Shown here piece after piece: positions 24,147 through 54,975 of a stretch of DNA of 64,000 nucleotides. The translations under genes were made by a program, and so were the position numbers. The notes below the pieces were generated by a model. The model made no database searches, had not been told where the DNA came from, and worked only from the letters and a program-made list of their open reading frames with translations. The stretch is from contig CP051242.1 in the NCBI GenBank assembly GCA_017795005.1, positions 1,884,976 through 1,948,975 of the forward strand. The letters run 5' to 3'. Origin of the DNA: Balneolaceae bacterium. Its GTDB lineage: Bacteria; Bacteroidota; Rhodothermia; Balneolales; Balneolaceae. Position 1 is the first letter of the stretch. Each line of letters begins with the position of its first letter.

Positions 24147-25940
24147 GTGGGTGCACTTAAAGACCTAAATAAATATCTCAGGAAATACAGAGTAGCTGTA
24201 ATATTAGGTACTCTTTTCCTAACTGCAGCAAACTTTTTCCTTGTTTGGATTCCGGTACTCATCCGTAGAACTATAGATCGGGTTGAAGACCTATCTGCGG
24301 AAAACTTTGAAGTTCCGGAAAGTCTTATTTCAACACTATTTTCCAGCGAAGTTGGAAAAATTCTGGGGATGAATTCTTTGTATTTGGTTGGAACTGTTGC
24401 TTTATATGGAGTATTCCTGTTCTTGACTCGTCAAACACTTATTGTTTCCTCGAGAAAAGTTGAGTTTGACATGCGAAATCAAATCGTTGAAAAATTGATG
24501 GCGCTACCACAACGTTTTTATGAGAAGTATTCACAGGGAGAAGTATATGTTCGAGCAACTGAAGATGTAAATAAAGTCAGAGAATATTATGGACCTGTAA
24601 TTATGTACAGTATTAATACAGTTACAAGAGCTGGTTTTGTAATTACAATGATGTACTTGGTCAATAAGGAGTTGATGGTGTGGGCACTGCTCCCTTTACC
24701 CTTACTCTCAATTTTTGCTTATTGGATAACAGGATTCATTCATAAACACTCTATTATAATTCAAGAACAATATTCCCGATTAGCAGGACAGGCTAAAGAG
24801 AGTTTTTCAAGCATCCGATTAATAAAGGCTTATAATCGAATTGATAATGAACAATCCAAGTTTGAAGTACTCAGTGAAGATTACAGAAAAAAGAAACTGA
24901 GACTGGATTTAATAGAATCTCTGTTTCATCCGGGACTTAATTTCCTAATAGGCATCTCTCTTATAATTGTGATCTGGCAGGGAGGTAACATGATTATAGA
25001 AGGAACTCTGACCGTTGGTAATATTGCTGAGTTCCTTATTTATGTAGCTTATTTAATCTGGCCGGTTGCTGCTCTTGGATATACCACCAATCGTTTCCAA
25101 AAATCGTTGGCATCATGGTATCGAATCAAAGAAATACTGGATTACCCTATCGAAATTTCTGATAAAGAGGACGCAATTGTTCAGGAAGTGAAGGGAGAAA
25201 TTGAATTTAAAAATGTGTCATTTAAATATCCTGATGCTGATGAGTTCGTGATCAAAGATTTGAATCTAAAAATCGAAGCCGGACAAAATATTGCAATAGT
25301 TGGAAGAACAGGTTCCGGAAAGACAAGTCTTATACAATTAATTCCAAGACTTTTTGACCCAACGGTAGGAGCAATTTTGTTAGATGGGATTGATTTAAGA
25401 AAGCATTCGGTTGAAAATATCAGAAAGGCCATTGGCTTTGTTCCACAGGATACATTTTTGTTTTCTGATACTATTGGAGAGAACATTGCTTTTGGTGTTG
25501 AAGATGCAAGTGAAGAACAAATTGAATTTGCTGCAGAGAAAGCTCAGGTTAAAGAGAATATTTTGGATTTTGAGAAAAAATTTAAGACTATGCTCGGAGA
25601 ACGGGGTATCACGTTATCAGGAGGACAAAAACAAAGGACAGCCATTGCAAGAGCACTGATAAAAGATCCCAAGGTATTAATATTTGATGATTCGCTAAGT
25701 GCGATAGATACAAAAACAGAAGACGCAATATTAAAACAATTACAAGAAGAGTTGGGCGGACGGACAACCATCATGATTAGTCACAGAATATCCACTATAA
25801 AGGATGCCGATATCATTTATTATATAGAAGACGGGAAAATTGCAGAATACGCCACCCATGAAGAACTTTTATCAAAAGAAGGCCATTATAAGGCCATGTA
25901 TACCAAACAATTACTAGAACAAGAATTAGCAGAAATATAA
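24147..25940 (+). CDS. ABC exporter half-transporter with degenerate Walker B (DD)
   Basis: 597 residues from GTG with an upstream AAGGAAGAG. It has six membrane segments (about 15-310), then an ATPase domain with Walker A at 386-394 (GRTGSGKTS), canonical signature LSGGQ at 490-494, Walker B LIFDD with Asp515 in the catalytic glutamate position, and the switch histidine in ISHRIS. Asp for Glu with an intact signature is typical of the degenerate half of heterodimeric exporters such as BmrC/BmrD, LmrC/LmrD and TM287/288. The half transporter at 27353-29140 has the opposite pattern, so the two probably form one heterodimer. The substrate is unknown; multidrug or lipid export is plausible. Confidence 0.9.
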   Translation: MGALKDLNKYLRKYRVAVILGTLFLTAANFFLVWIPVLIRRTIDRVEDLSAENFEVPESLISTLFSSEVGKILGMNSLYLVGTVALYGVFLFLTRQTLIVSSRKVEFDMRNQIVEKLMALPQRFYEKYSQGEVYVRATEDVNKVREYYGPVIMYSINTVTRAGFVITMMYLVNKELMVWALLPLPLLSIFAYWITGFIHKHSIIIQEQYSRLAGQAKESFSSIRLIKAYNRIDNEQSKFEVLSEDYRKKKLRLDLIESLFHPGLNFLIGISLIIVIWQGGNMIIEGTLTVGNIAEFLIYVAYLIWPVAALGYTTNRFQKSLASWYRIKEILDYPIEISDKEDAIVQEVKGEIEFKNVSFKYPDADEFVIKDLNLKIEAGQNIAIVGRTGSGKTSLIQLIPRLFDPTVGAILLDGIDLRKHSVENIRKAIGFVPQDTFLFSDTIGENIAFGVEDASEEQIEFAAEKAQVKENILDFEKKFKTMLGERGITLSGGQKQRTAIARALIKDPKVLIFDDSLSAIDTKTEDAILKQLQEELGGRTTIMISHRISTIKDADIIYYIEDGKIAEYATHEELLSKEGHYKAMYTKQLLEQELAEI

Positions 25941-26000
25941 TATAACCCGATAAATGCATTGTTTGACAGGCAATGTTTATTGGAAAATGGGAGAAATAAA

Positions 26001-27341
26001 ATGATTGTAGTACCATTAGGAATAGCCTCAGCAACACCAACCGCAGTTCGACATCTACCTGCAGTAGCTCTTTGGAGAGAAGGAAGTGTTTTTCTCTTTG
26101 ATTGTGGCGAAAATGCACAGATGAGTATGCTTCAAGCAGGCTTAAAACGTTCAAAAATTGATGCAATTTTCATTTCACATTTTGATGTAGATCATTACTC
26201 AGGATTAATGGGTTTGCTTTCAACTTTACAGCTTCAGCGAAGAGATCGTGAGCTTACCATAGCCGGACCGAAAGGGATTAAAGAGTTCATAGAGTGGAAC
26301 CTTAATTTCTCAGGTGTTGAATTAGGTTTTGCTATCAATTATAGCGAAGTGGAAGAAGGTGAAGAGGTTACCCGCGTTATTGATGAAGAAGACTATTACG
26401 TAGAAGCCCGACCACTGAAACACCGTAGATTTTGTCTTGGATTCCGCTTTCAGGAAAAAGATAAGCCGGGTAAGGTTGACTCAGAAAAAGCTGAAAAATT
26501 TGGAATCACTGAAGATCAGCAGTTCAAAGATTTAAAAGCGGGTAAGAATATTAAACTTGCAGATGGAACCGAAATTGAGGCGTATGAGATCGTAGGTCAC
26601 CCACGCCCGGGTGATAGTTTTGCGTATGTTTCAGATACAGAATACTGCCCAAATGCAGTGAAATTGGCAATGAATACCAATATCCTGTACCACGAAGCAA
26701 CGTTCGGAAATCAGTTAGCAGATAAAGCGAAAGAAACAGGTCATTCTACAGCTGGTGATGCAGCACGTGTTGCTACGGAAGCTCAAACAAAATTATTGGT
26801 AATAGGTCATTTCTCAGCGAGATATACTAACCTGCATGTGTTACTAAAAGAAGCCCGTGATGGTTTTTACCCAACTTGGTTGGCAAATGAACTTCGTCCA
26901 ATTTTTACTGATCCAACTCATGAGAGAGGAATCATAAAACCAAAGGTAGAAATTAAAGATCTTACTAAGAGTTCTTCTTCATCAGATGGACGTCCATCCC
27001 ACTCTTCTGGACGAAGAGACAGCCGTGGTCAAAGCCGCGGTGGTAAAAACTTCCGTCCACGTAGAGGCGGTAGTGGAGGAGGAAACTACCGTAGTGATAA
27101 CAGAGGTGGAGGAAACTACAGCCGTGATAATAGAGGCGGCGGCGGAGGATACCGAAACAACCGATATAATTCCGGTGGTGGAGACAGAAACCGTGACGAT
27201 CGATACAATAATCGTGGAGGTGGTGAAAGACGTTCCTATGGAAGTAGCTCTTACAACCGCGACCGAAATGATGATCACGAATCGCAACCAAAAAAAACGA
27301 TTACGCCGAGAACATCTTATGATGATTTCGACAGATTCTAA
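26001..27341 (+). CDS. RNase Z-like metallo-beta-lactamase protein with RGG-rich C-terminal tail
   Basis: 446 residues from the ATG at 26001, which has GGGAG just upstream and starts the fold correctly (MIVVPLGIASATPT); an in-frame TTG at 25959 would add an unlikely extension. RNase Z features present: PLKHRRFC, FAYVSDT, LYHEATF, GHSTAGDA and IGHFSARY. The metal motif is unusual: ISHFDVDHYSG places Asp62 where the second His of HxHxDH normally sits. Residues from about 322 form a disordered tail of Arg, Gly, Ser, Asn and Tyr with many RGG/GGG blocks, as in RNA-binding proteins. RNase Z matures tRNA 3' ends. The gene lies between the two ABC halves. It could be the tRNase Z or a diverged RNA-binding paralogue. 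Confidence 0.8.
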   Translation: MIVVPLGIASATPTAVRHLPAVALWREGSVFLFDCGENAQMSMLQAGLKRSKIDAIFISHFDVDHYSGLMGLLSTLQLQRRDRELTIAGPKGIKEFIEWNLNFSGVELGFAINYSEVEEGEEVTRVIDEEDYYVEARPLKHRRFCLGFRFQEKDKPGKVDSEKAEKFGITEDQQFKDLKAGKNIKLADGTEIEAYEIVGHPRPGDSFAYVSDTEYCPNAVKLAMNTNILYHEATFGNQLADKAKETGHSTAGDAARVATEAQTKLLVIGHFSARYTNLHVLLKEARDGFYPTWLANELRPIFTDPTHERGIIKPKVEIKDLTKSSSSSDGRPSHSSGRRDSRGQSRGGKNFRPRRGGSGGGNYRSDNRGGGNYSRDNRGGGGGYRNNRYNSGGGDRNRDDRYNNRGGGERRSYGSSSYNRDRNDDHESQPKKTITPRTSYDDFDRF

Positions 27342-27352
27342 CAAGTATTTCT

Positions 27353-29140
27353 GTGAGTAAGTCGAAAGACAAAAAAGCCGTTGATAGAAAACTGATTCGA
27401 CGGCTTTACTTTTTTGTAAAACCATATAGATGGTACGTAGCTCTGGCAGTGGTTCTCACATTAAGTGCGTCCTTTCTGGGAACTGTGCGTCCAAAATTAA
27501 CCCAACTTGCTGTAGATGATTACATTGCTGAAGGGGATTTTGAAGGCCTTATGTACATCATTATGTTGCTTTTTGGAGCATTACTCGGAGAATTTATTCT
27601 CCAAATGATCAATACTTACCTCACCCGGTGGTTTGGACAGGGAACCCTATATTCGCTCAGAAATACCATTTTCGAAAAAATTCAGTCTCTTAATGTACAG
27701 TTCTTCGATAAAAACCCAATAGGCAGGTTAATAACCAGAACAACCAGTGATGTTGAAGCTCTGAGTGAACTTCTTTCGGATGGTGTTGTGGCTATTATTG
27801 GTGATTTATTCAGAATCATATTCATACTCTATTTTATGTTCAGTATGAATTGGGAGTTGAGCTTGGTTACGATCGCTATTCTTCCGGTACTATTTTATGC
27901 TACTTTCTGGTTTAAAGAAAAAGTGCGTGTTTCCTTCCTGAAAGTGAGGGATCAGATATCGAATCTTAACTCTTTTGTACAGGAACATATAAATGGAATG
28001 GATGTAGTTCAGTTGTTTAACAGAGAGAAAAAACAACAGAAAAAATTCAAAAATATCAATGCTGATCACAAAGAAGCTCATATAGAGACAATTTTTTATT
28101 TTTCCATTTTCTGGCCCATTGTAGAGGTTTTTTCAAGTTTTGCAATGGCTCTGATTGTATGGTACGGAGGTGGAAGGGCATTGATGGGTGGTGTTACTTT
28201 TGGGGTACTTTTAGCATTCATACAATATTCCCGACAGTTTTTTATGCCTATCCGTGGACTTTCAGAAAAGTTCAATACACTTCAATCTGCATTGGCATCT
28301 TCTGAGCGTATTTTCAACGTGTTAGATACAGATACAGAAGTAATAGAGACGGTTTCTCCTAAAAGAATTGACAACCCAAAAGGAGAAATCGAGTTTGAGA
28401 ACGTTTGGTTTAAATACAATGAAGGAGAAGACTATGTACTCAAGAATGTATCCTTTAAAGCAAAAGCAGGTGAAACTGTAGCAATTGTCGGAGCAACCGG
28501 AGCAGGTAAAACCACAATCATCAATTTGTTACTTCGATTCTATGATATAGAAAAAGGAACTATCCGTCTGGATGGAGTTGATATTAGAGAATTGTCGCTC
28601 GAAAATCTTCGAACTTACTTCTCATTGGTACTACAGGATAATGCCTTATTTACAGGTTCGATTATGGACAATATCACACTTGGTGAAAAATCTATCAGTA
28701 GAGAAAAAGTAATTGAAGCTGCTCATCAGGTTGAAGCTCATCGCTTTATTGAAAAGCTTCCCAAAAAATACGATTTCAAATTAAAGAAACAGGGAACATC
28801 CCTTTCAATGGGGCAAAGGCAACTTATTTGTTTTGTGAGAGCAATGGTCTTTGATCCTAAAATATTGATCCTGGATGAAGCTACATCCAGTATAGATTCA
28901 GAAACAGAAGCTTTGGTTAATGAAGCAAGTCTTAAGATGATGGATGGAAGAACTTCTATCGTAATTGCTCATCGATTATCAACCATACAGCATGCTGATA
29001 AAATTCTGGTTATGCACAAAGGGGAAATAAGAGAAGAAGGATCTCATACAGACCTTATTCAGCAGGAGGGTGGAATTTATAAGAAATTGTATGAGCTTCA
29101 GTATAAAGATCAGTTAGTGGAGGCGACGAAAGACGAATGA
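27353..29140 (+). CDS. ABC exporter half-transporter with canonical Walker B, degenerate signature
   Basis: 595 residues from GTG 11 bp after the RNase Z-like gene. Six membrane segments are followed by an ATPase domain with Walker A at 380-388 (GATGAGKTT), signature LSMGQ at 484-488 instead of LSGGQ, Walker B LILDE with the catalytic Glu509, and the switch histidine in IAHRLS. The intact catalytic site combined with a degenerate signature is the mirror image of the protein at 24147-25940. This supports one heterodimeric exporter with one active and one degenerate ATP site. The basic N-terminus (KSKDKKAVDRK) is cytoplasmic. The substrate is not evident. Confidence 0.9.
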   Translation: MSKSKDKKAVDRKLIRRLYFFVKPYRWYVALAVVLTLSASFLGTVRPKLTQLAVDDYIAEGDFEGLMYIIMLLFGALLGEFILQMINTYLTRWFGQGTLYSLRNTIFEKIQSLNVQFFDKNPIGRLITRTTSDVEALSELLSDGVVAIIGDLFRIIFILYFMFSMNWELSLVTIAILPVLFYATFWFKEKVRVSFLKVRDQISNLNSFVQEHINGMDVVQLFNREKKQQKKFKNINADHKEAHIETIFYFSIFWPIVEVFSSFAMALIVWYGGGRALMGGVTFGVLLAFIQYSRQFFMPIRGLSEKFNTLQSALASSERIFNVLDTDTEVIETVSPKRIDNPKGEIEFENVWFKYNEGEDYVLKNVSFKAKAGETVAIVGATGAGKTTIINLLLRFYDIEKGTIRLDGVDIRELSLENLRTYFSLVLQDNALFTGSIMDNITLGEKSISREKVIEAAHQVEAHRFIEKLPKKYDFKLKKQGTSLSMGQRQLICFVRAMVFDPKILILDEATSSIDSETEALVNEASLKMMDGRTSIVIAHRLSTIQHADKILVMHKGEIREEGSHTDLIQQEGGIYKKLYELQYKDQLVEATKDE

Positions 29141-46713: not shown

Positions 46714-49529
46714 ATGCCCATAAACAGACCAAAACCCTTATTTAAAGTAGCTTCAGAGTTTAATGTCTCTACTCAGTCTATTGTAGACACACTGGAAGAC
46801 AATGGGTTCTCTGCAGCTAACCGACCTAACTTCAAAATCACACCAGAGATGTATGAAGTGTTGGACGGAGTTTATGGGGAAGACAAAGCTAAAAGTCAGG
46901 ATCACGAACGAGCTAAAGAAGAGTACGAGAGTCGTCGTAATCACATGATGAATCAGCGTAATGAAAGTGTTACGCTTGATAACATCTTAGAGCCACTGGA
47001 TGGGCTAGAACCCATCGATGAAAAAGCAGAGCCTTCTATTGAAGATGATCTTGTTGCTGGTTTAGAACCTCTTGAAGAGGAAACAGAGGAAGTTGCTGAG
47101 TCAGAAACAGCTGAGGAACCGGAAGAAGCTTCAGAGCCTGAAGTGGAAGAACAGGAAGAGGAAGTTGTAGCAGAAGAGCAGGAAGAAGAGCCAGATCCTG
47201 AAGTTGAGGAAGAGGAAGTCGTCGCAGAACAACCGGAGGATTCCGAGGAAGAAGATGGGGATGACGAAGAAGAAGACGACGAGACCGAAGATTCTGATGA
47301 GGACGATGACGAAGATGAGGACGAAGAGGAAGACGAAACGGATGATTCCAACGACGACGATGAAGAAGATCAGGAAAAAATCATTCGTGTGGACGTGCAA
47401 AGCAACTTAAAGGAACTAAAGTTCTAGGTAAAACGGCTTTTACAAACGATCTAACCTCTGATTCAAAAGTACGCAAGAAGAGAAAGCGCAAAAAAGATCG
47501 TCCAGGGTTTGACGAAAAGTCTAAGGATAATAAGTCTGAAAATAAGGAGCGCAAACGTAAGCCTTCTCCTAAAAAAGACACAAAAGGCAAAGCTAAGCCT
47601 AAGACCGAAGTTGATGAGGTAGATGTTGATCGTATGATGCGAGAGACACTGAAGAAAATGCAGGGTAACAGTACGGTTGGTAATAAAAGAGGGAAGCGCC
47701 GTCGCCAACGTAAAGAAGAACGAGAAGAGGAATTACTCCAACAGCAGGAAATGGAGGAAATGGAATCAGGTACCATTGAAGTAACTGAATTCATTACTGC
47801 AAATGATCTTGCTGAAGAGCTTGAAGTTGGAGTTAACGATATTATTTCTGCCTGTATGAGTATCGGTCTGATGATTACCATTAACCAACGTTTAGATGCT
47901 GGTACTATTGAATTAGTCGCCAGTGAGTTCGGTAAAGATGTGAAATTCATCGATGCTGAAGAACTCGTTGAAGATTTGGTAATTGAAGAAGACGCTGAAG
48001 AAGATCTTAAGCCTCGCGCTCCAATTATTACCGTTATGGGTCACGTAGATCACGGTAAAACTTCCTTACTTGATTACATTCGAGAAGCTAAAGTAGCAGA
48101 AGGTGAAGCCGGTGGTATCACACAGCACGTTGGTGCCTACGAAGTGATCCATCAGGATAAAAAAGTAACCTTCCTTGATACTCCGGGTCACGAAGCTTTT
48201 ACCGCTATGCGTTCCCGTGGTGCTCAGGCAACCGATATTGTAATTCTTGTTGTAGCTGCGGATGATTCTGTGATGCCTCAGACCATTGAGGCTATTAATC
48301 ATGCGAAAGCTGCGGGTGTTCCAATTGTTGTTGCTATCAACAAAATTGATAAAGATGGTTCTTCTCCCGATAAAATTAAGCAACAGCTTTCAGAACACGA
48401 TGTAATTGTTGAGGAGTGGGGTGGAACGGTTCAGTTTGCTCTTGTATCAGCTAAAACTGGTCAGGGAATCGATGACCTTCTCGAGAAAGTATTGATTGAA
48501 GCTGAACTTCTGGATCTTAAATCTAATCCTGATCGTCGTGCTGATGGTGTTGTTCTTGAGGCTCGCCTTGATAAAGGAAAAGGTATTGTTGCTAATATTC
48601 TGGTACAAAATGGAACTCTGAATGTTGGCGATGCTTTTGTGGCAGGACCTTGTTTCGGAAGAGTTCGCGCCATGGAAAATGATCATGGGGTGAGAATTAA
48701 ATTAGCAGGACCTGCAACTCCTGTTCAGTTAACTGGTTTTGATGAAATGCCTCAGGCAGGTGATAAACTTGTAGTTGCTGAAGATGAGAAAACAGCAAAA
48801 GAAGTTGCTAATCAGCGTCAGCAAATTCGTCGTGAACAGGCAATGCGTAAGACCAAGCATATGACACTTGACGATCTGTCTCGTCGACTGGCTCTTGGTG
48901 AAGTTTCTGAACTTAATATCATCATTAAAGCTGATGTAGACGGTTCTATTGAAGCACTTTCTGGTTCTTTACAGAAAATCAGCACTGATGAGGTGGCTGT
49001 AAATATTATTCATACCGGCGCAGGTGCAATTTCTGAATCTGATGTATTACTTGCGTCTGCTTCTGATGCAATCATCATTGGTTTCCAGGTTCGTCCCACT
49101 GCACAGGCACGTAAACTGGCTGAAACAGAAGAAATCGATATCCGATTATTCAGTGTTATTTACGATGCTGTTGATGAGGTAAAAGATGCCCTCGAAGGAT
49201 TGTTATCTCCTGAACTAAAAGAGCAGATGATGGGTATTGTTGATGTACGTGAAATCTTCAAAGTATCTAAAGTTGGTACAATTGCTGGATGTTATGTGAC
49301 AGAAGGCAAGATTGATCGAAACAATCCGATCCGAATCATCCGTGAAGGAGTGGTAATTTATGACGGTGCCATTGGTGCTCTGAAACGTTTCAAAGATGAT
49401 GTTAAAGAAGTAGCATCAGGATACGAATGTGGTATCAGCATACAGAACTACAACGACATCAAAGTGGGAGATATGTTCGAAAGCTACAAGATTACTGAAG
49501 AGAAACGTACGCTGGAAGACGTTAATTAA
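46714..49529 (+). CDS. infB: Translation initiation factor IF-2, reading frame interrupted (-1)
   Basis: IF-2 is spread over two frames. The first part (46714-47427) has the IF2_N domain (PLFKVASEFNVSTQSIVDTL) and a long, extremely acidic Glu/Asp linker, ending at a TAG. The second frame is open from 47364 and gives LKGTKVLGK, a basic Lys/Arg linker, a second IF2_N-like segment and the GTPase domain: G1 VMGHVDHGKTS, G3 DTPGHEAF, G4 NKID, G5 SAK, with the C2 domain to 49529. Joining them by a -1 shift within 47364-47427 restores about 938 residues. ATGs at 47634/47637 could start a shorter IF-2, as E. coli makes. The break could be a sequence error, real mutation or recoding. IF-2 is essential and places fMet-tRNA. 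Confidence 0.85.
47364..47427 (+). other. Window in which the infB frame change must occur
   Basis: Upstream limit: a TGA at 47361-47363 in the downstream frame. Downstream limit: the TAG at 47425-47427 in the upstream frame. The stretch contains six As (47375-47380) and CTTAAAG (47406-47412). A one-base loss in either, or a -1 slip, would explain the split. CTTAAAG is not a canonical X-XXY-YYZ slippery site and no clear Shine-Dalgarno or downstream stem stimulator is visible. Confidence 0.7.
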
Positions 49530-52851: not shown

Positions 52852-54975
52852 ATGAAAGAAGATTTTAGAAGTATAGAATTTGCACCGGGAAAGGTGCTAT
52901 CCGTAGAAACAGGCCGAATAGCTAAACAAGCTGATGGTTCTGTTGTTGTTAAAATGGGGGACACCATGGTGCTTTGTACTGCGGTAAGTGCCAAAGAACC
53001 AAAACCGGGACAGGATTTCTTCCCGTTAACCGTAGATCATAAAGAAAGTTTTTCCGCTGCAGGACGTTTTCCGGGCGGATTTATGAAAAGAGAAGGACGT
53101 TCAAACGAAAAGGAAATTCTTTCCAGTCGTTTAATTGATCGTGTACTTCGTCCGCTTTTCCCAAAAGGATATGTATGTGACACTCAGGTAATTTCAAGTG
53201 TTATTTCATCAGACGATGAAAACGACGGTGATGTGCTGGGTGGAGTTGGAGCTTCATTAGCTATTCACTTATCAGATATTCCATTCGACGGCCCAATGGC
53301 TGAAGTTCGTGTTGGACGTGTGAATGGTGAATTCATTATCAACCCTACAGTAACTGAGCTAAAAGACAGCGACATTGATATGGTTGTTGGAGGTACTGAG
53401 GACAGTATCCTGATGATTGAAGGTGAAATGATGGAAATTTCAGAAGCAGAGATGCTTGATGCTATCAAAGCTGCTCATGAAGCCATTAAGAAATTATGTG
53501 ATTTCCAGAACGAGCTTCGTAAAGAACTCGGAAAAGAAAAAAGAGAATTTATTCCTCCGGCTGTAGATGAAGACCTCGAATCAAAAGTAAAAGGACTTGC
53601 TGAAGCTGCTATCGTTGATATTGTGAACATTGGTCTTAACAAAGAAGACTACAATGGTAAAATCAAAGAAGCGAAAGAAGAAGCAATGGCTAAGCTGGAA
53701 GAAGAGTTAGCTGAAGATGAAGGCGCAGATGCAAAGCTATCAGAAGCAAAAAAGATTTTAGGCAGCATCGAGAAGAATGCACTTCGTAACATGATTCTTG
53801 AGAAAGGTCGTCGTATTGATGGTCGTTCTACTACTGATATCCGTGATATTTGGACTCAGGTAGGATACATTGCAAGAGCACACGGTTCTTCTATTTTCAC
53901 CCGTGGTGAAACTCAGGCGTTAGTTTCTGCGACTTTAGGAACTCGTCGTGACGAGCAAAGTGTGGATACATTATTTGATCAGGATGCAAAGCAATTTTTC
54001 CTGCACTACAACTTCCCTCCATATTCTGTGGGAGAAGCTGGTTTCATGAGAGGTCCCGGACGTAGAGAAATTGGTCACGGTCATCTTGCAGAAAGAGCGC
54101 TTAAAATGTTGATGCCAACTTTCGATGAATTCGGATATGTAGTTCGTGTTATTTCTGACATCACAGAATCAAACGGTTCTTCATCTATGGCTTCTGTTTG
54201 TGGTGGTTCTATGGCATTGATGGATGCTGGTGTCCCATTGAAAAAACCAATCGCTGGTATTGCGATGGGAATGATTGTTGGTGAAGACAAAACTGCGATT
54301 CTTTCTGACATCCGTGGAGAGGAAGATTTCATGGGAGACATGGACTTCAAAACAGCTGGTTCTTCAGAGGGAATTACAGCTTGCCAGATGGATATGAAAG
54401 TTCAGGGAATCAGCTTCGAAACGATTGAAGAAGCTCTTGCTCAGGCTCATACAGGTCGTATGCACATACTTGGTGAGATGGCGAAAACGATTACTTCTTC
54501 AAGAGAAAACATTTCTCAATATGCTCCTCAGTTCCTGAAAATGGAAATCGATGGCAGCGATATTGGTGCAGTAATCGGACCTGGTGGTAAAGTAATTCAG
54601 ACTCTTCAGAAAGAAACCGGAACTGAGATTATCATTGAAGAAGACAACAATGGTAAAGGTCAGATTACGATTTCAGCGAACGACCTTAGCAAAGCTGAAG
54701 AAGCTAAAAACCGAATTAAGATGATTGTAGGTCACCTTGAAGAAGGCGCAACCTACAAAGGAATTGTGAAGTCTATCAAAGACTTTGGTGCATTTGTTGA
54801 AATCGCACCGGGTAAAGATGGCTTATTGCACATTTCTGAAATCGATCATAAGCGAGTGGAGAAAGTAACCGATTACCTTCAGCTTGGAGATGAGCTGGAT
54901 GTAAAACTGCTCAAAATTGAGCACGGCGGTAAACTTCGTCTCTCCAGAAAAGCATTGATCGAAAGAGAAGATTAA
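52852..54975 (+). CDS. pnp: Polyribonucleotide nucleotidyltransferase (PNPase)
   Basis: 707 residues. Two RNase PH-like domains (N-terminal VKMGDTMVLCTAV and FMKREGRSNEKEIL; second with GRRIDGRSTTDIRDI and FLHYNFPPYSVGE) flank a helical region. KH (about 565-620, IDGSDIGAVIGPGGKVIQTL) and S1 (about 630-695, YKGIVKSIKDFGAFVEIAPGKDGLLHISE) domains follow. It degrades RNA 3'-to-5' with phosphate and forms part of the degradosome. It follows rpsO, as is usual. A strong terminator follows. Confidence 0.97.
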   Translation: MKEDFRSIEFAPGKVLSVETGRIAKQADGSVVVKMGDTMVLCTAVSAKEPKPGQDFFPLTVDHKESFSAAGRFPGGFMKREGRSNEKEILSSRLIDRVLRPLFPKGYVCDTQVISSVISSDDENDGDVLGGVGASLAIHLSDIPFDGPMAEVRVGRVNGEFIINPTVTELKDSDIDMVVGGTEDSILMIEGEMMEISEAEMLDAIKAAHEAIKKLCDFQNELRKELGKEKREFIPPAVDEDLESKVKGLAEAAIVDIVNIGLNKEDYNGKIKEAKEEAMAKLEEELAEDEGADAKLSEAKKILGSIEKNALRNMILEKGRRIDGRSTTDIRDIWTQVGYIARAHGSSIFTRGETQALVSATLGTRRDEQSVDTLFDQDAKQFFLHYNFPPYSVGEAGFMRGPGRREIGHGHLAERALKMLMPTFDEFGYVVRVISDITESNGSSSMASVCGGSMALMDAGVPLKKPIAGIAMGMIVGEDKTAILSDIRGEEDFMGDMDFKTAGSSEGITACQMDMKVQGISFETIEEALAQAHTGRMHILGEMAKTITSSRENISQYAPQFLKMEIDGSDIGAVIGPGGKVIQTLQKETGTEIIIEEDNNGKGQITISANDLSKAEEAKNRIKMIVGHLEEGATYKGIVKSIKDFGAFVEIAPGKDGLLHISEIDHKRVEKVTDYLQLGDELDVKLLKIEHGGKLRLSRKALIERED

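Follow-up and report, generated by a model that had tools for sequence, protein, structure and literature searches.

An order-wide RNase Z of the Balneolales with aspartate in metal-binding motif II and a predicted disordered basic tail

The open reading frame at 26001 to 27341 of the window (the whole 64,000-nucleotide stretch of Balneolaceae DNA that was analyzed) encodes a protein that belongs, by sequence homology, to the RNase Z orthologous family. The second His of its motif II is replaced by Asp (D62), and its core is followed by a basic C-terminal tail. The most probable reading is that the protein still acts as a tRNA 3'-endonuclease; its metal site, made more acidic, would prefer Mn or Fe, and its tail would tether RNA and dock to a partner. 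A probability of about 0.6 was assigned to its being the working RNase Z of this bacterium with the inferred activity, metal, and tail roles. The features referred to below are as follows.

24147 to 25940, + strand: upstream half-ABC exporter gene (PF00664 and PF00005; neighbor conserved)
26001 to 27341, + strand: rnz, the RNase Z gene, ATG to stop, 446 amino acids plus stop (TIGR02651)
26100 to 26120, + strand: motif I DCGENAQ, residues 34 to 40, with N38 in place of Gly at 26112 to 26114 (arm and motif alignment)
26178 to 26195, + strand: motif II HFDVDH, residues 60 to 65, with the D62 codon GAT at 26184 to 26186 (D in 101/101 Balneolales, H in 49/49 others)
26445 to 26615, + strand: exosite (flexible arm), approximate, residues about 149 to 205 (alignment to 2cbn and 1y44)
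26937 to 27338, + strand: predicted disordered basic tail, residues 313 to 446 (pLDDT below 50 at 313 to 318 and 330 to 446)
27300 to 27338, + strand: conserved C-terminal peptide ITPRTSYDDFDRF, residues 434 to 446 (pairwise identity of tips)
27353 to 29140, + strand: downstream half-ABC exporter gene (PF00664 and PF00005; neighbor conserved)

In a profile search, the frame scored 311.3 bits against TIGR02651, above the curated equivalog cut-off of 292.95, which bears out the original reading as an RNase Z-like enzyme. The ATG at 26001 was in line with the starts of the orthologues, and GGGAG at 25989 to 25993 is a plausible ribosome-binding site. Alignments to Escherichia coli ZiPD (2cbn) and Bacillus subtilis RNase Z (1y44) spanned residues 3 to 298 and 5 to 289, respectively, each including the arm. 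An AlphaFold model that drew on 50 relatives had pLDDT values of at least 90 at 297 residues, nearly the entire core, and its top Foldseek matches were the RNase Z-tRNA complexes 2fk6 and 4gcw (target TM, 0.88 to 0.89). Alignment and model therefore agreed on the MBL fold of RNase Z with its exosite arm. Nothing was found in favor of the overlapping open reading frames across the tail (26982 to 27425, − strand; 26986 to 27360, + strand) as genes.

The source genome is closed, a single contig of 3.75 Mb with 99.5% completeness. As had been suggested with the original prediction, all of it was searched for a second, canonical RNase Z, and no further full RNase Z was recognizable. The other MBL matches examined in this genome as canonical RNase Z candidates were PhnP-like, YtnP-lactonase-like, or ComEC-like, and one was an arm-less MBL protein.

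Motif II of the window protein reads HFDVDH, and the enzyme is therefore not of the canonical HxHxDH type. In the alignment, D62 fell where 2cbn and 1y44 both have the second His of HxHxDH. The HxHxDH motif is regarded as the hallmark of the MBL superfamily (PMC7785958). In RNase Z of the B. subtilis type, the second motif II His (His65) is given as a Zn ligand (PMC8549757); the inactive-site B. subtilis tRNA complex 2fk6 has Ala in the D62 column. Activity with Asp at this position is therefore not assured. The claim that all other motifs were kept was correct for the remaining metal ligands (H60, D64, H65, H141, D212, and H270) and for the HEAT/HST histidines (H231 and H248). It was too broad for motif I, where G38 is changed to Asn, and for the arm, which lacks the GP motif and reads GITEDQQF; the arm alignment placed the loss of GP already in the sister lineage. 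No report of HxDxDH in an RNase Z was found in the literature searched, where the literal text HXDXDH was encountered only for a putative quorum-quenching lactonase.

Both D62 and the tail had been referred to an alignment of homologues, and 150 RNase Z orthologues were compared: 101 from Balneolales and 49 others from the same GTDB phylum, the sister family included. Some records duplicate one genome, so that 87 of the 98 complete genes were distinct in core sequence. Asp was present in 101/101 Balneolales sequences, encoded by both GAT and GAC, and in 0/49 outside the order, and every complete Balneolales orthologue carried a tail. A further 20 Balneolales genes, picked for deep branches and small genomes, all had Asp as well; the smallest D62-bearing genomes sampled were about 1.5 Mb, with RNase Z retained there. 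No reversion was seen in these 121 Balneolales sequences. The catalytic positions besides D62 were invariant in the 150 orthologues with the lone exception of H231Y outside Balneolales, and within the order the ligands, HEAT/HST motifs, and arm were kept throughout. Hence, the site is under selection rather than decaying. The change of G38 to Asn accompanies that of His to Asp, with Asn in 101/101 Balneolales sequences and Gly in 46/49 others. Three deep or small-genome members (L287, L288, and L295) have motif I as DAGEN, with Cys35 changed to Ala and GEN, including N38, kept.

The original prediction had allowed for D62 being standard among relatives with unchanged activity. At the sequence level, the first half of this proved correct, since the residue is standard in the whole order, and the change is therefore ancient and stable and not peculiar to the window gene. 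In the tree, the D-bearing sequences formed a single clade with 100/100 support, whose sister was family f7 with HLHGDH and without a tail, pointing to an old, single, and fixed replacement. Judged from these sequences, the swap of His to Asp arose once, at the base of Balneolales. The f7 enzymes (L017 and L018; 50 to 53% identity) share the arm type (ITEDWQF) and the ABC-rnz-ABC neighborhood but differ in having HLHGDH, Gly in motif I, and no tail. This gene order (window 24147 to 29140) was kept across Balneolales, f7, and f17; as it also flanks canonical RNase Z in f7 and f17, it explains neither the Asp nor the tail.

A search with the D-type motif II nucleotide pattern matched nearly all Balneolales genomes and gave zero matches in same-class genomes outside the order. 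In other parts of the phylum, the pattern also occurred in 14 genomes, where the residues of the matching genes look ComEC-like or otherwise unlike RNase Z (HLDNDHIGG and HVDSDHYKG). Beyond the phylum, His was found in 6/6 plasmid-borne RNase Z genes, a thin sample that was supplemented by PDB sequences; an independent Asp elsewhere is possible, outside phyla being thinly sampled. Sequencing or annotation error was ruled out, as D62, tail, and tip recurred in independent isolates and MAGs. Tree and neighborhood gave no support to horizontal gain of an unusual RNase Z. Misbinning or misnaming is probable for three records named as Osedax symbiont Rs2, Rhodothermaceae, and Chitinophagaceae (L051, L104, and L116), each of which carried an RNase Z of the Balneolales type.

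Encoded CCA was absent from 24 of the 28 distinct tRNA genes examined in the source genome, and the RNA-binding domain of CCA/poly(A) polymerase was present. RNase PH was absent from the genome, the PF01138 matches being confined to one 707-codon frame of PNPase size. Taken together, these features make an endonuclease that cuts after the discriminator a natural need. The enzyme would cut pre-tRNA directly after the discriminator base, letting CCA be added, and we regard this step, predicted from sequence, as very probable. RNase Z is indispensable in Streptococcus, in which CCA is missing from every tRNA (PMC8549757). CCA was encoded only in Cys-GCA, Val-TAC, one Met-CAT, and Ser-GCT, and these four tRNAs would need either ends produced by exonucleases or an RNase Z that tolerates CCA. 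The PNPase-sized PF01138 frame lies 27 kb downstream of rnz, at about 52897 to 54237 of the window (G000:C1:1937872-1939212).

No full RNase Z match was obtained in four genomes of the same class, G013 (f6), G085, G135, and G239 (f9). The tRNA genes of G013 and G085 were mostly CCA-less, and the PF01138 frames found there were PNPase-sized only; another tRNA 3' route therefore exists in the class, and these exceptions weaken CCA-less tRNA genes as proof of a need for RNase Z. Candidates for the tRNA 3' enzyme in the four genomes are RNase Z-like MBL proteins that lack the arm, for example L275 (from the set L273 to L282).

The C-terminal extension was the second departure from known RNase Z. 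All 84 good-quality Balneolales genomes in the order-wide survey had an RNase Z match, and where complete, the Balneolales frames were about 400 to 566 codons long, compared with about 300 to 350 for most genes outside the order. In the window protein, the low-complexity R/G/S/N/D part comprised residues 328 to 446 (119 amino acids), with an entropy of 3.21 bits versus about 4.0 in the core. All 98 complete orthologues extended 79 to 229 residues past residue 320, with a net charge of +7 to +38 and almost no hydrophobic residues. The window tail contains five RGG triplets. At least one was found in 40/98 tails and none in 58/98; RGG was common in this genus, other lineages being K/S-rich, and RGG/RG repeats were thus not conserved across the orthologous group. 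Therefore, RGG composition cannot be the shared function of these tails. Of the long RGG tail originally predicted, the disordered, basic, low-complexity character is supported, and RGG is a lineage-specific form.

What the tails have in common, judging from the aligned sequences, is positive charge and the C-terminal peptide, not RGG; the peptide was not mentioned in the original prediction, which had characterized the tail by RGG/GGY. The tips of the orthologues had the consensus ITPRTxFDDFDRF. Mean pairwise identity was 78% over the last 11 residues, 31% over the preceding 11, and about 15% in the inner tail, and R-10, R-2, and the final F were invariant in the 87 distinct sequences. Two deep members of the order ended in DRL in place of DRF. 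Codon differences in the tip were concentrated at third positions (0.24, 0.09, and 0.55 for positions 1, 2, and 3), as expected of selection on the peptide, and the C-terminal peptide is, on this pattern, under purifying selection. Within the genome, the exact motif occurred in rnz alone, and with up to three mismatches the tip pattern gave 48 matches compared with 44 for the reversed pattern.

The tail would raise local RNA affinity through nonspecific charged contacts, a role that is reasonably likely. The tip, R-x-x-[FY]-D-D-x-D-R-F, may dock on a partner protein or back on the enzyme itself, with the chances about evenly balanced. The architecture resembles, by analogy, that of bacterial single-stranded DNA-binding protein (SSB) and RNase E style tails, which have a folded core, a fast-evolving disordered linker, and a conserved short C-terminal peptide, although the peptide here, DDFDRF, is unlike the SSB tip. 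Basic low-complexity tails also occur on three DEAD-box frames of the same genome (L260, L261, and L270); such tails on RNA enzymes are thus a habit of this genome. Two of the three helicase frames end in short, W/F-rich, amphipathic-looking stretches, GLWGLIKSFFPR and GVFGWVKKLFD. The RNase Z tail is a clear example from bacteria of an RNA enzyme whose disordered extension drifted in composition between RGG and K/S with charge and terminal peptide fixed.

With respect to the metal, D62 would remain a ligand, now as a carboxylate, making the site more acidic; by analogy, a shift from Zn2+ towards Mn2+ or Fe2+ has roughly even odds. This preference is predicted from two precedents with an acidic motif II residue. 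ComEC, in which the same His is replaced by Asp, requires and binds Mn2+ and gains no stability from Zn2+ (PMC8579336), and flavodiiron proteins, with His to Glu in motif II, hold iron (PMC7785958). Altered metal use, as originally suggested, thus remains the best reading of the site by analogy. The analogy to the ComEC C-terminal MBL nuclease domain is partial because ComEC carries Asn in place of the motif III His, a residue that the window protein retains (H141); ComEC is, moreover, a membrane DNA transporter and not an RNase Z by sequence, and among the families listed the window protein had no ComEC match. Flavodiiron proteins share the acidic residue and the harder metal but have Glu instead of Asp and are oxidoreductases of another family. 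Compared with bacterial short-form RNase Z (1y44/2fk6/4gcw and ZiPD/RNase BN 2cbn), the window protein has the full-length match, the fold, the arm, and all ligands but one; it differs in HxDxDH for HxHxDH, in N for G/A in motif I, and in a disordered tail of about 130 residues with a conserved tip.

The fuller account, in which Mn or Fe took the place of Zn in catalysis through one ancestral ligand swap and its companion change in motif I and the tethering and docking tail was gained on the same branch, is tentative, somewhat short of an even chance. Under this account, tRNA 3' maturation in an entire bacterial order would rely on a different metal and on a new protein contact. An ordinary dizinc RNase Z, in which Asp is tolerated as a Zn ligand and D62 with N38 is compensated drift leaving metal and activity unchanged, is a serious possibility that also falls below even. 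Asp commonly serves as a ligand in the metal sites of MBL proteins (PMC7785958), and all remaining features (score, ligands, and fold) are RNase Z-like. However, the absence of reversion in the order and of Asp outside it fits a functional state better than drift, and the MBL precedents for an acidic residue in motif II work with Mn or Fe. It is very unlikely that the protein is no longer a tRNA 3'-endonuclease, its fold being reused for another phosphodiester reaction (on other RNA, or deAMPylation) or surviving as a dead RNA-binding scaffold. One Zn ligand is altered, deAMPylation has been reported among other possible RNase Z activities (PMC12663964), and G013 and G085 mature their CCA-less tRNAs with no full RNase Z match; yet the other ligands, the HEAT/HST motifs, and the arm are kept order-wide, RNase Z persists in the smallest genomes, and the protein is the sole full RNase Z of a genome with CCA-less tRNAs and no RNase PH. 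As a stable natural change across an order, the swap to Asp provides a ready-made test of how metal choice in an essential nuclease depends on first-shell ligands, for which D62H, N38G, and the sister-family enzyme are controls at hand.

For the tail, an alternative to tethering and docking is RGG-driven phase separation, by which RNase Z would join helicases and PNPase in a bacterial RNA body. The RGG/RG repeats of the window tail and the basic tails of the three DEAD-box frames are in keeping with this, and condensates of RNase E have been described in bacteria (PMC9312465); since more than half of the tails lack RGG, however, RGG condensation is not a shared function, and the proposal is unlikely as a general account, although condensate formation by the window tail itself is possible. 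A neutral, functionless expansion of low complexity is very unlikely as an account of the tail. The sequence from core to tip is barely conserved, and the tail DNA contains a two-copy 30-bp tandem repeat, but a tail in every complete orthologue, its unfailing positive charge, and purifying selection on the tip argue against neutrality. Tethering and docking remain the preferred roles of the tail.

Two further features of the assembly were recorded. Tandem arrays at window 47243 to 47376 would encode a D/E-rich acidic repeat. A 737-codon helicase frame occurs twice, at about 14489 and 3737173 of G000:C1 (L262 and L263), near both contig ends, and reflects either a genuine duplication or overlapping ends left untrimmed in a circular assembly.
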